From a virus, in the IMG/VR virus record IMGVR_UViG_3300030102_003614, positions 1 to 26,043 of that record: 26,043 nt of DNA; one strand, written 5' to 3'. This document shows, piece after piece, positions 19,091 to 24,402 of this stretch. The notes beneath the pieces are model-generated. The model saw only the letters and a program-made list of their open reading frames with translations. It searched no databases and was not told where the DNA came from. The position numbers were made by a program, and so were the translations under genes. The first letter of the stretch is position 1. Each line of letters opens with the position of its first letter.

Positions 19091-19104
19091 TTTTATTATA
19101 TTTG
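19073..19104 (+). promoter_or_regulatory. promoter candidate upstream of the 19.1 kb terminator
   Basis: TATATTTG at 19097-19104, followed by CAGG, is a perfect match to the Bacteroidota -7 element TAnnTTTG. TTTC at 19073-19076 lies 20 bases upstream and differs by one base from the -33 TTTG. It would start RNA near 19111, only about 70 bases before a terminator. The upstream half overlaps the end of the metallophosphoesterase gene. It could drive a short RNA or be chance. Confidence 0.45.
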
Positions 19105-19131
19105 CAGGTTTTCAATAATAAGTTTTTGTTT

Positions 19132-19180
19132 AAAAGCAACTTACTTGAACGTCAAAAATTCATATAGGTTGCTTTTTTTT
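19132..19180 (+). terminator. intrinsic terminator at the end of the late genes
   Basis: AAAAGCAAC (19132-19140) pairs with GTTGCTTTT (19168-19176), nine pairs extended by a wobble and two AT pairs. The loop contains a small TTGA-ACG-TCAA hairpin (19145-19155). Eight T in a row (19173-19180) complete it. It lies 42 bases after the metallophosphoesterase stop and would end late transcription. Read the other way the T-run is shorter, so it is mainly a + strand terminator. Confidence 0.75.
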
Positions 19181-19192
19181 TGACTAAAAATT

Positions 19193-19311
19193 AAGGTTTT
19201 TAACAATAGCTTTTTTAAATAATTTATACGTAAAGCTTGTAAGTTGTTGATTATCAATAATAAAATAATATAAAAAAAACTTTGTTTTATTTTTGTATTG
19301 TTAAAAACTTT
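19193..19311. repeat. long inverted repeat flanking the early promoter
   Basis: AAGGTTTTTAACAATA at 19193-19208 is matched in inverted orientation by TATTGTTAAAAACTTT at 19296-19311, 15 of 16 positions with one G-T. The arms are separated by 87 bases. The right arm occupies the spacer between the -33 and -7 boxes of the early promoter. A TTGATTATCAA element (19247-19257) sits between the arms. Two copies of one binding site facing each other would fit an operator, or part of an origin. Confidence 0.5.
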
Positions 19312-19321
19312 AGTATGTTTG
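19292..19321 (+). promoter_or_regulatory. early promoter
   Basis: TTTG at 19292-19295 and TATGTTTG at 19314-19321 are separated by 18 bases and match the Bacteroidota TTTG and TAnnTTTG elements. Transcription would start about seven bases on, near 19328, 22 bases before the ATG at 19350. It is followed by a long unbroken series of same-strand genes without another visible promoter until about 24400, so it is the best candidate for the main early promoter. Confidence 0.7.
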
Positions 19322-19349
19322 TAGCATAAAACATTAAAACAAAAACAAA

Positions 19350-20418: not shown

Positions 20419-20698
20419 TTATACTATACACAAAACAATAAAACAAAAGGTTAATATAAGCGCTAAAGATTTGCCTATCTATAAAATATATTTTGGTTAC
20501 AATACTACTTGGTATTTTAGACTTAAAGTTATAGAAGGTTATTTAGTGGCTCATAAATTAGAAATAAATACTAAAGGCGGTCACCAGTACTTGACTACAA
20601 TTCCAGAAGTTATAATTGACGGTGAATACGATAAATGTACTGAGGAAGACTGGTATAGGGCTGTAGAATTATTATTAAAAGAATTAGATAATCAATGA
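20408..20698 (+). CDS. hypothetical early protein
   Basis: The 96-residue product has a beta-rich first part (YKIYFGYNTTWYFRLKVIEG, about 25-44, then YLVAHKLEI) and ends with a helix (CTEEDWYRAVELLLKELDNQ). The last four bases overlap the next start (ATGA). No named domain. Position just before the putative annealing protein and nuclease suggests a part in DNA metabolism, but only by neighbourhood. Confidence 0.6.
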   Translation: MTNNYTIHKTIKQKVNISAKDLPIYKIYFGYNTTWYFRLKVIEGYLVAHKLEINTKGGHQYLTTIPEVIIDGEYDKCTEEDWYRAVELLLKELDNQ

Positions 20699-21075
20699 AT
20701 AAAGATATATTAAAGAAGCTATACTTAGATAATTCACTTAGTAAAAAAGATACGCATACAGACAAAAGAGGTTTTACCATAATAACAAAGTCTGGTATTG
20801 AAAAAATTAAATTTAATCATAATATTTTTGTTGATTACGAAACTATTAGATGTGATAAAGATTTTGTTGTATTTAAAGCTACAAGTTATATTAATGAAGA
20901 ACCTAAAGAAATTGCTTTTGGTTCGGCTTCAGACGAAAATTGCTATAATAATTTTAAGGTAGAAGTAGCACAAAAAAGGGCTTTAGCACGTGTTGTAATA
21001 GCTACAGTCGGTTTGAGCAAAGCTATGGGTGAAGATGAAATAAACTACCAAAAAAAACAAATAGTAAATAAATGA
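20695..21075 (+). CDS. putative ssDNA-annealing or recombination protein
   Basis: The 126-residue protein has RGFTIITKSGIEKIKFNHNI (about 25-44), DFVVFKATSY (about 56-65) and then VEVAQKRALARVVIATVGLS (about 89-108). I recall the ITxSGIEKI and AxKRALxR pattern from a widespread but poorly described phage family, and the second part resembles the helix in Erf/Sak/Rad52-type annealing proteins. It overlaps a Cas4-like nuclease gene (ATGA), the usual exonuclease-annealing pair. The role is inference; homology search or structure prediction would decide. Confidence 0.5.
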   Translation: MNKDILKKLYLDNSLSKKDTHTDKRGFTIITKSGIEKIKFNHNIFVDYETIRCDKDFVVFKATSYINEEPKEIAFGSASDENCYNNFKVEVAQKRALARVVIATVGLSKAMGEDEINYQKKQIVNK

Positions 21076-21797
21076 AAGTAAGCCAGTCAGCTTTACGTGA
21101 TTTTTACAATGAAGACTTTTGTAAAGTCAAGTGGGAAGAAATGTATATTAATAATTATAGAACAAAACCCACCGCTGCTATGATTGACGGTTTGTTTTTT
21201 GAGCAAAACGTAATAGGTGAAAGTAGAGGTGGCGAAGTTTACAATATACCAAAACTAAAAACTGGTAAACCTTCAAAACGTGAAACTGATTTACTAAAGC
21301 TATCTAAATTTGCAAAACAAACTATTAAAGATTTAGAAATAGAATTAATAGACGTACAGCCAGAATGGTCTTCAAAAGAACTTATAGGACACCCAGACGC
21401 TTTAATTAAGTATAAAGGTGAACTTGCTATTTTAGATTTAAAATATACAGCTATTAAAGAAACTGAAAGCGCAAGGTTTAACCCATACGCTTGGTCCGAT
21501 TTAGAATATAAAGATTTTAGCCAAGCTATTCATTACATAGAATTGTATAAACAAATGTATGATATTTATTTACCATTTTTTTATTTAGTTTTTGGCAAGT
21601 CTGGCTGGGTTAAATTTATTTGTATTGATTTGACCAAAAAAAGTTTAGATGAATATAAAGACAAAATAAAGCGTTTTCAGCAAGATTTTAAGACTTTTAA
21701 GCCCGTAGGTATAAATAACTATGAAACTTGTAGAAAATGCCCTATAATGTGTAATGAACGTATATATAAACCACAAATAATTACAGTAGAATGTTAG
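21072..21797 (+). CDS. PD-(D/E)XK nuclease with Fe-S-type cysteines (Cas4/RecB-like)
   Basis: The 241-residue protein carries GHPDALI with D109, ILDLKY with D122 and K124, and Q151 in SQAIHY, the catalytic set of PD-(D/E)XK nucleases in the RecB/Cas4 branch. C17 near the start and C220, C223 and C227 (CRKCPIMC) near the end match the four-Cys cluster of Cas4 and AddB, which holds a 4Fe-4S group. It is likely a 5'-3' exonuclease in phage recombination or replication, paired with the preceding gene. No cas genes or repeats are nearby. Confidence 0.85.
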   Translation: MKVSQSALRDFYNEDFCKVKWEEMYINNYRTKPTAAMIDGLFFEQNVIGESRGGEVYNIPKLKTGKPSKRETDLLKLSKFAKQTIKDLEIELIDVQPEWSSKELIGHPDALIKYKGELAILDLKYTAIKETESARFNPYAWSDLEYKDFSQAIHYIELYKQMYDIYLPFFYLVFGKSGWVKFICIDLTKKSLDEYKDKIKRFQQDFKTFKPVGINNYETCRKCPIMCNERIYKPQIITVEC

Positions 21798-22168
21798 AAA
21801 AAGAAAAAGAAATATTAAATAAAGTAATAGAGCAACTATCTATAATGTATAAAGTAGATGCTGAAGAAATAAAAAAAATAGGTAGTAGAAAAGAAAACGT
21901 AATAGAAGCGCGTAGAATGTTTAATTATTATTTATTTACAGAAAAAAATATAAAACATTATAAAATGAATATGTACATTAAAGGTATAAACCATGCGACT
22001 TCAATATATCATGTAAAAAAAATTAAAGATTTATTTACTGTAGATAAAGAATTACAAATAAAATATATAGAATTACTTTATTTATGTGATACAGATAACT
22101 TTTATAGATTACATAAAAATAAAATATTTAGTGATACTATAAGTAAAGTATTCAAAATAATAAAGTAG
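21791..22168 (+). CDS. stand-alone DnaA domain IV-like DNA-binding protein
   Basis: The 125-residue protein resembles the C-terminal duplex-binding domain of DnaA. GSRKENVIEARRMFNYYLF (31-49) matches the basic-helix pattern SRKREVVxARQIAMYL, and IKGINHATSIYHVKKI (63-78) matches the DnaA signature GGRDHSTVxHAxxKI, with the central H-A/S-T kept. There is no AAA+ domain. It may recognise DnaA-box-like sites at a phage origin, or compete with host DnaA. The start overlaps the nuclease stop. Confidence is moderate because it rests on pattern alone. Confidence 0.68.
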   Translation: MLEKEKEILNKVIEQLSIMYKVDAEEIKKIGSRKENVIEARRMFNYYLFTEKNIKHYKMNMYIKGINHATSIYHVKKIKDLFTVDKELQIKYIELLYLCDTDNFYRLHKNKIFSDTISKVFKIIK

Positions 22169-22272
22169 TGAAAAACAAGTATAAAATAGGTAATTTTATT
22201 ATACAATTATTACCGCCTAAAATAATTTATAAATTTAAAAACAAAAAAAATGATAGTAAAAGGAAAACTTAA
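22168..22272 (+). CDS. possible 34-residue basic peptide
   Basis: GTG at 22168 overlaps the previous stop (TAGTG) and opens 34 codons (MKNKYKIGNFIIQLLPPKII, then a Lys/Asn-rich end) to TAA at 22270-22272, which lies inside the next gene. The hydrophobic middle and basic ends could suit a small membrane-associated peptide. It would fill an 81-base gap. No family is recognised and chance is a fair alternative. Confidence 0.25.
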   Translation: MKNKYKIGNFIIQLLPPKIIYKFKNKKNDSKRKT

Positions 22273-22540
22273 AAAACTATTACCAGAAATATCTGGTATT
22301 AATAAAGCTGGTAACGAATGGAAAAAGCAAGATTTTATTATAGATACTGGCGCGCAGTTTAACCCAGAATTATGTATTTCTACATTCAAAGAAAATATAG
22401 ATGTCATAAAGAATATAAACATAGGTTCTGATTTAGAAGTAGAACTAAACTTATATTCAAAACCCTATAATGATAAATACTTTCATAATATTATAGCTTG
22501 GAAAATAACAGTATTGGATAACGAACAAACACCGTTTTAA
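22250..22540 (+). CDS. DUF3127 OB-fold protein, likely SSB-like
   Basis: The 96-residue protein matches DUF3127: VKGKLKKLLPEISGINKAG (about 3-21), EWKKQDFIIDTGAQFNP (about 23-39), and YFHNIIAWKIT (about 77-87). Members are small OB-fold proteins found mostly in Bacteroidota and their phages, with suspected single-stranded DNA binding. The last residues, DNEQTPF, resemble the acidic tip ending in Pro-Phe that bacterial SSB uses to recruit partners. It sits among replication and recombination genes, so an SSB role is likely. The leader is A-rich (AAAAACAAAAAAA then ATG). Confidence 0.75.
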   Translation: MIVKGKLKKLLPEISGINKAGNEWKKQDFIIDTGAQFNPELCISTFKENIDVIKNINIGSDLEVELNLYSKPYNDKYFHNIIAWKITVLDNEQTPF

Positions 22541-22541
22541 G

Positions 22542-22913
22542 ATGTTAAAAGGTTATGAAAACATTACGTATGAACTAACAGCTGAAGAAAAAGAATTATT
22601 ACCTATTATTGTTAAAGGTTTGTTAAATAAAAAAGGTAAAGAAAACGCTGTTAGCGGTACTAAAATACAGAAAGCGCTTAACTTAACTGGCGCACGTCTA
22701 AGAAAAATAATTGGGTATATAAGAACAAATGATTTAATCTTTGGCTTATGTTCTACTAAAAGCGGTTACTATGTCGCTAAAGACATACGCGAATTAAGCG
22801 ACTGTATGACTTCATTAAAGCAAAGAATTTATGCGCAAATGAAGACTTTACATTCACTTGAAAAACAGTCTTTAATGATTGGTGGAACGGGTCAATTAAC
22901 AATATTTGAATAA
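22542..22913 (+). CDS. winged-helix protein with clamp-binding-like tail
   Basis: The 123-residue protein has LTAEEKELLPIIVKGLLNKK (about 12-31) and then VSGTKIQKALNLTGARLRKI (about 37-56), a helix-turn-helix, then a wing around YYVAKDIREL. A C-terminal helix ends with GQLTIFE. QLTIF is close to the QLxLF-type motif that binds the bacterial beta sliding clamp. Similar proteins occur in early regions of Bacteroidota phages as I recall, without assigned function. It ends one base into the replication gene (TAATG). Confidence 0.65.
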   Translation: MLKGYENITYELTAEEKELLPIIVKGLLNKKGKENAVSGTKIQKALNLTGARLRKIIGYIRTNDLIFGLCSTKSGYYVAKDIRELSDCMTSLKQRIYAQMKTLHSLEKQSLMIGGTGQLTIFE

Positions 22914-23551
22914 TGGAAATAATAAGAGTAATAAAAAATAGAAACTATAGTACTATAGCAAATAATGTATTTAGAGACAAAAACGTAAGCTTAAAGGGTA
23001 AAGGTCTTTTAGCTTTAATTTTATCATTACCAAACGACTGGAATTTAAATATATCAGGACTAAGTAAAATAACTAAAGAAGGTAAACATTCTATTAGCAC
23101 CACCATAAACGAACTTATACAATGCAAGTATATAGAACGTAATATAATACGTAATAAAGGTATGTTTAAAGGTTATCAGTATATAGTTTATGAAGAACCG
23201 AAAGCTAATAATTCGGACACGGTAAAACCGATTACGGAAAACCAGCAACAAATAAATAAAGAAGAAAATAAAATAACTATAAAAAAAGATATAATACAAG
23301 AATTAAAAACTGAAGTAGCGCATTACGAAGGGTGCGAAAATATAGTTAAAATAGAATTTTTAGAATATTGGTTAGAACCAAGTAAAAGTGGTAAAACACG
23401 TTTTGAAATGCAAAAGACATGGGACACAAATAGAAGACTTAAAACATGGATAAAAAACAATAATAAATGGTATGGTAGTAAAACAAATAAATTAGATAGG
23501 CAAGTAGGTGCATGGGTTTCAGCGCGTGATATGATAGAAAAAAATGGTTAA
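22913..23551 (+). CDS. replication initiator or organiser (winged helix, RepO-like)
   Basis: The 212-residue protein has an N-terminal winged helix (about 1-95): YSTIANNVFRDKNVSLKGKG, LLALILSLPNDWN, and ISGLSKITKEGKHSISTTIN. A polar linker follows, and then a C-terminal region with FLEYWLEPSKSGKTRFEMQK (149-168) and TNRRLKTWIKNN, as in phage O/DnaD-like replication proteins. Such proteins bind the origin and help load the replicative helicase; since no helicase is encoded, the host DnaB would be recruited. It overlaps the gene on each side. Confidence 0.75.
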   Translation: MEIIRVIKNRNYSTIANNVFRDKNVSLKGKGLLALILSLPNDWNLNISGLSKITKEGKHSISTTINELIQCKYIERNIIRNKGMFKGYQYIVYEEPKANNSDTVKPITENQQQINKEENKITIKKDIIQELKTEVAHYEGCENIVKIEFLEYWLEPSKSGKTRFEMQKTWDTNRRLKTWIKNNNKWYGSKTNKLDRQVGAWVSARDMIEKNG

Positions 23552-24117: not shown

Positions 24118-24367
24118 CGAAGACGATTATATAAAAGGCATATATTCTATTTATACTGACCCTAGAGAATTTGACGGTAATAAAGTTAAATGTAGTCTTT
24201 GTGATAATGAAGCTGAAGACTGGGACGAAGTATGCGAAGACCACCAACTTTGTGACGATTGTTCGGAATATAATTTAGACTGTAGATGTGATTTTTTTAT
24301 AGAACAATACAATAGAAATAGACAGCCAAAAGATTGGATTAAAAATATATCAGAAATAGATTATTAA
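24110..24367 (+). CDS. acidic two-site zinc-binding protein
   Basis: The 85-residue protein has eight metal ligands in order: C28, C31, C42, H45, C48, C51, C58 and C60. They suit two zinc sites in a compact finger. The surroundings are strongly acidic (DDYIK, EDWDEV, CDDCSEYNLDC), unlike DNA-binding fingers, so protein binding is more likely. It is the last gene before a 97-base gap that contains a promoter. No family is recognised. Confidence 0.65.
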   Translation: MFNEDDYIKGIYSIYTDPREFDGNKVKCSLCDNEAEDWDEVCEDHQLCDDCSEYNLDCRCDFFIEQYNRNRQPKDWIKNISEIDY

Positions 24368-24402
24368 CAATAAAATATTAATAACTACTTAATTAAAAAA
24401 GA

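Follow-up and report, generated by a model that had tools for sequence, protein, structure and literature searches.

The canonical DnaA box is TTATCCACA, and the DNA-reading domain of this bacterial initiator is its domain IV (PF08299; 1j1v), a helical fold with a helix-turn-helix (HTH). In E. coli DnaA, R399 enters the minor groove while the recognition helix reads the 3' part of the box (PMC5742627), the roles of R399, R407, and H434 have been described (PMC5742627, PMC7561715), and base contacts have been assigned to residues 399, 423, 432-435, and 438-439 (PMC5043019). D433 is highly conserved in DnaA and is reported to contact box position 7 (PMC8235120), although it is typical of the superfamily rather than required of it. 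E. coli DnaA also represses its own promoter (PMC8203912). Among phages, the predicted structures include many stand-alone domain IV proteins, and the annotated 'DnaA' proteins of Polaribacter phages P12002L (PMC4615864) and Freya_1, Cellulophaga phi19:3, Sulfitobacter phiGT1, and uncultured Caudovirales likewise consist of domain IV alone, the phiGT1 protein being annotated as 'DnaA C-terminal domain IV'. These proteins are about 100-200 residues long and are encoded in replication/recombination regions. Phage domain IV proteins carry the labels 'DnaA' or 'replication initiation protein', even though DnaA's job is impossible without the ATPase, and we found no functional study of a stand-alone phage domain IV protein in the open literature.

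The locus described here has the same general layout. The window (the whole stretch of 26,043 nucleotides that was analysed) contains terminase, portal, head, and tape-measure genes, and it therefore derives from a tailed phage. Both the TAnnTTTG promoter element and the single relative recovered from two scans of genome contigs, a phage-like contig binned into a Flavobacteriales MAG, point to a presumably Flavobacteria-like host. A preliminary description of this DNA had proposed a gene for a stand-alone DnaA domain IV-like protein, lacking the ATPase and lying upstream of an SSB-like and an initiator-like gene, and each of these elements was recovered (Table 1). The ORF exists and includes both of the peptides quoted in that description, its 125 residues leave no AAA+ part, and the ORF immediately upstream encodes a PD-(D/E)XK nuclease instead. 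Downstream, the SSB-like product is an SSB-type protein and the initiator-like product resembles phage replication-initiation/DnaD-like proteins. Comparison of the domain IV gene with its 93%-identical relative (L001) gave a pN of 0.035 and a pS of 0.346 (pN/pS ~0.1), so that the ORF is a genuine gene on which purifying selection acts. Its place in the replication/recombination region is also conserved, as the order of annealing-type protein, PD-(D/E)XK nuclease, domain IV, SSB, winged-helix, and Rep genes is kept, with local gains and losses.

Table 1. Positions of the features discussed, in window coordinates.
Feature	Positions	Strand	Basis
IMG/VR record IMGVR_UViG_3300030102_003614, complete 26-kb virus record (the window)	1-26,043		
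Conserved AT-rich control region with DnaA-box-like 9-mers, upstream of early operon	19091-19349		
Highly conserved non-coding block, 118/122 identical to L021	19177..19298	.	alignment
Candidate site TTTTTAACA (of TTTTTAACAATA)	19197..19205	+	predicted
Presumed Bacteroidota-type early promoter: TTTG, 18-nt spacer, TATGTTTG	19292..19321	+	read from sequence
Candidate site TTTTTAACA, inside early promoter spacer	19299..19307	-	predicted
PD-(D/E)XK nuclease, upstream neighbour of domain IV gene	21072..21797	+	profile matches
Stand-alone DnaA domain IV gene, 125 aa	21791..22168	+	ORF, profile, fold, purifying selection
Bac_DnaA_C homology region	21818..22024	+	profile match
SRK loop; R33 aligns with E. 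coli DnaA R399 (minor-groove arginine)	21884..21892	+	alignment; role PMC5742627
Predicted recognition helix, residues 68-82 (HATSIYHVKKIKDLF)	21992..22036	+	model and alignment
SSB-type protein (DUF3127, phrog_4932)	22250..22540	+	profile matches
Winged-helix-like protein, phrog_2113; synteny anchor	22542..22913	+	profile matches
Replication-initiation / DnaD-like (Rep-like) protein	22913..23551	+	profile match
Candidate site 3, TTATTAACA (of TTATTAACAATA)	24361..24369	+	predicted

Searched as a single sequence, the 125-aa protein matched PF08299 (Bac_DnaA_C) over residues 10-78 and profile positions 2-69 of 69 with an E-value of 3.2e-4 and 21.1 bits, which is only suggestive because the curated cut-off is 31.5 bits. 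Unlike the annotated phage 'DnaA' proteins, it has no PHROG match, nor does its subfamily have a PHROG, and no meaningful tblastn match was obtained among 50,697 phage records. Viral contigs yielded one close relative (L001) together with syntenic others at 26-34% identity, and their alignment, used as the query, returned 31 loci and a 28-row family alignment. At the level of this family the profile match is conclusive, with PF08299 matched by 24 of the 28 members (best E-value 5e-10). The top four matches of the family profile in the PDB are all DnaA, led by E. coli DnaA domain IV (1j1v, E-value 3.3e-5) and followed by chance-level matches, and at an E-value of 1e-5 the same profile matched 282 of 395 Flavobacteriales genomes, where almost all of the matches listed are the C-terminus of a DnaA-sized frame. 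The AlphaFold model of the protein (pLDDT 86), compared by Foldseek and structural superposition, has the domain IV fold with its HTH and superimposes upon 1j1v with a Z of 14.5 and an rmsd of 1.8 Å over 94 residues, versus a Z of 5.7 for the best non-DnaA fold. Matches to rotavirus NSP2 (E-values 0.04-0.07) were dropped, there being no such fold among the structure matches. From the family profile, the PDB ranking, the Flavobacteriales DnaA matches, and the model superposition, we can conclude that homology and fold are settled: the protein is DnaA domain IV and nothing else. Compared with DnaA it has neither the AAA+ ATPase (domain III) nor the N-terminal domains, and it has a helical C-terminal tail of ~40 residues. 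As stand-alone domain IV is already annotated in many phages, the kind of protein is known, and what is new here is a member of a subfamily that is uncatalogued and in which the reading residues have changed.

We consider it about 60% probable that this protein binds duplex DNA of its own genome at the early control region, in an operator and/or origin-site role. Domain IV without the ATPase would constitute a small, sequence-specific duplex-DNA binder of the phage replication/recombination operon, and its likely targets would be short DnaA-box-like sites on the phage genome, chiefly those of 19091-19349. Binding there could keep early genes repressed or set the time of their transcription, and/or flag the start of replication to the initiator/helicase-loader-like protein (22913) and the SSB (22250). 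The preliminary description had suggested that the protein marks the phage origin; box-like 9-mers are indeed present in the AT-rich control region, but the GC skew of the window makes no turn near 19.3 kb, and origin activity at that position is therefore unsupported. Marking of the phage origin by the domain IV protein is possible. If the candidate site holds, an initiator's DNA-reading domain would have been recycled as a phage operator/origin binder with shifted specificity. The family itself offers a concrete candidate site, together with relatives that form a natural series with and without the gene.

Upstream of the early operon, a non-coding region of 150-550 bp is present in nearly all members of the family. 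In the window, the conserved block within this region contrasts in its near identity to L021 with the 23-35% synonymous divergence of nearby genes. We take the early promoter to be of the Bacteroidota type from the generally known consensus. Across 26 early control regions, TTWTNAACA occurs in 40 copies in 24 of the regions versus 7.6 +/- 2.5 in shuffles. When the DnaA box TTWTNCACA and every one-letter variant of it were counted, only TTWTNAACA was strongly enriched, and in an unguided 8-mer count it ranked immediately after the promoter -7 element. The DnaA-box-like 9-mer TTNTTAACA, which is one base off the bacterial box, is thus, promoter elements aside, the strongest motif upstream of the early operon and a candidate site on statistical grounds. 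Typically, the promoter spacer contains one copy of the box, 6-8 nt ahead of TAnnTTTG, and a second is found 45-100 bp upstream. In L048 and L050 the spacer box is reversed, and such freedom of orientation fits an operator better than it fits a core promoter element. The spacer box was present at 0 of 101 host TAnnTTTG sites, and the composite promoter-with-box pattern was found in 5 of 148 host genomes. Over the entire window TTNTTAACA is not enriched (5 found, 6.4 expected), the extended 12-mer and the crowding of copies in control regions being all that stands out. No cluster of boxes was seen in the non-coding DNA of isolated phages whose domain IV proteins are of other kinds. Likewise, 20 Flavobacteriales dnaA neighbourhoods yielded no cluster of oriC boxes, and hence no host box to set beside that of the phage. 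Other elements were also observed in these regions. A terminator-like hairpin (19131-19180) follows the phosphoesterase gene and shows paired changes relative to L021 (GCAAC..GTTGC versus GCAAT..ATTGC). A second conserved element, ~TTTACTAGGTTAAAAAAAAT, is located upstream of the early promoter in L022-L028, L141, L142, and L168 and occurs both with and without the domain IV gene. In addition, a near-identical promoter, GAATTGTTAAAAACTTTTCGTATATTTGTAT, was found in a dozen contigs of 3 to 250 kb (L250, L263, L264, L272, L273, L278, L283, L293, L295, L302, L316, and L318) and is perhaps part of a mobile element.

The presence of the box was compared with that of the gene among phages sharing the winged-helix protein. 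The spacer box was found in 21 of 26 phages with a window-type domain IV protein versus 0 of 25 without one (Fisher p 7e-10, with kinship ignored). When placed on a tree built from the winged-helix protein, the gene is missing at four separate points, which gives four independent contrasts; the box follows the gene in nearly all pairings and runs opposite to it in none, with a p of 0.125 at best, as significance is out of reach with only four contrasts. The pairing was found post hoc, and we regard it as a lead, not proof. By eye, L141 and L142 retain a recognisable version of the early promoter region that lacks both boxes. In L159 the domain IV slot is filled by another domain IV protein that has diverged further (PF08299 E-value 0.0018), and the spacer box is absent while other box copies remain in the control region. 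It should be noted that L159:6477-7004 (P0002) encodes a DnaA_C-like protein with the helix RDRSLIYHYE, in which R occupies the position of DnaA H434.

There is an appreciable chance, if short of an even one, that TTNTTAACA belongs to another factor, either a host regulator or a different phage protein, and that the domain IV protein binds elsewhere or serves as a non-specific architectural protein. A scan for the promoter-with-box pattern matched many viral contigs (56 of 80 matches were intergenic), and the converse test, from box to gene, gave no support to the pairing, with a PF08299 match in only 17 of 50 whole records; many of these 50 are fragments, yet large records without a match exist. 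The box is also present in the L136/G007 phage, whose domain IV is host-like with D433 kept, and within the winged-helix set it shows no association with domain IV proteins from other subfamilies (1 of 14). Due to these cases, another factor may read the box. Against this stand the loss of the box with the loss of the gene in all four independent contrasts and the agreement of the box with the DnaA box at 8 of 9 positions. Our more detailed proposal is put forward as tentative: through changes in its recognition helix, a re-targeted domain IV would read the phage-specific box of the promoter spacer, and this one small protein would control the early operon as well as tag the phage start site while leaving host DnaA sites unused.

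It is similarly doubtful, though conceivable, that the protein is purely a transcription regulator of the early operon, acting as an autorepressor or activator at the spacer box with no part in replication. The box lies in the spacer close to the -7 element in either orientation and is absent without the gene in the sampled winged-helix group, as would suit such a regulator, and the autorepression of E. coli DnaA (PMC8203912) offers a precedent, since here too the operon presumed to encode the binder has a DnaA-type box at its promoter. The likeness has its limits, as the window protein has no ATPase and hence no nucleotide switch, the phage box is one base different, and the binder is only a predicted one. 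Furthermore, the gene is located among replication genes and away from any repressor locus, a second box lies 45-100 bp upstream, and the box occurs in phages without a detected domain IV, all of which argue against a purely regulatory protein.

The residues that contact DNA bear upon a further proposal of the preliminary description, namely that the protein occupies host DnaA boxes. Across 30 phage proteins there is no variation at R399, R407, or H434, T436 is retained in 28, and position 435 has A or S, like its host counterpart; in the window protein, H68 aligns with H434 and N67 with D433. Other positions have changed relative to domain IV of DnaA. Position 432, K or R in host DnaA, is hydrophobic in the phage proteins, D433 is replaced in 29 of 30, V437 is replaced mainly by S or A, and A440 mainly by H, whereas 17 distinct host DnaA proteins all keep K/R432, D433, and V437, and 16 of them A440. 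Thus, the DNA-binding frame is retained while several reading positions are unlike those of the host. The subfamily differs in this respect from several annotated phage 'DnaA' proteins, whose recognition helix has stayed closer to that of the host (DHSTI, DHASV, or DHTTI). Loss of D433 was considered as the cause of the C6-to-A change in the box and was dropped, as L022 and G007 keep D433 yet have the same box and D433 contacts position 7. An isolated domain IV with R399, R407, H434, and T436 kept could in principle compete for host boxes at oriC or the dnaA promoter and thereby block host initiation, but we consider such a take-over unlikely. Selection for mimicry should have preserved positions 432, 433, 437, and 440, the gene belongs to a replication/recombination operon in which its place is conserved, and canonical DnaA boxes occur in the window no more often than expected (90 found, 98 expected, one mismatch allowed). 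Binding to its own genome is the reading that we prefer, with phage DNA, and not the host origin, as the probable target. A chance resemblance to domain IV by some other helical protein, to which the single-sequence score beneath the Pfam cut-off might appeal, is contradicted by the concordant family profile, fold, and residues and is highly improbable.

Two neighbouring products showed features of their own. The small protein encoded at 20695-21075 has a weak match only, to phrog_22961 (E-value 6e-4), and resembles a short single-strand annealing protein. In the Rep-like protein, a FEMQKTWD motif at the C-terminus recurs in the phages L007-L012, whose matches to this protein are limited to its C-terminal part.
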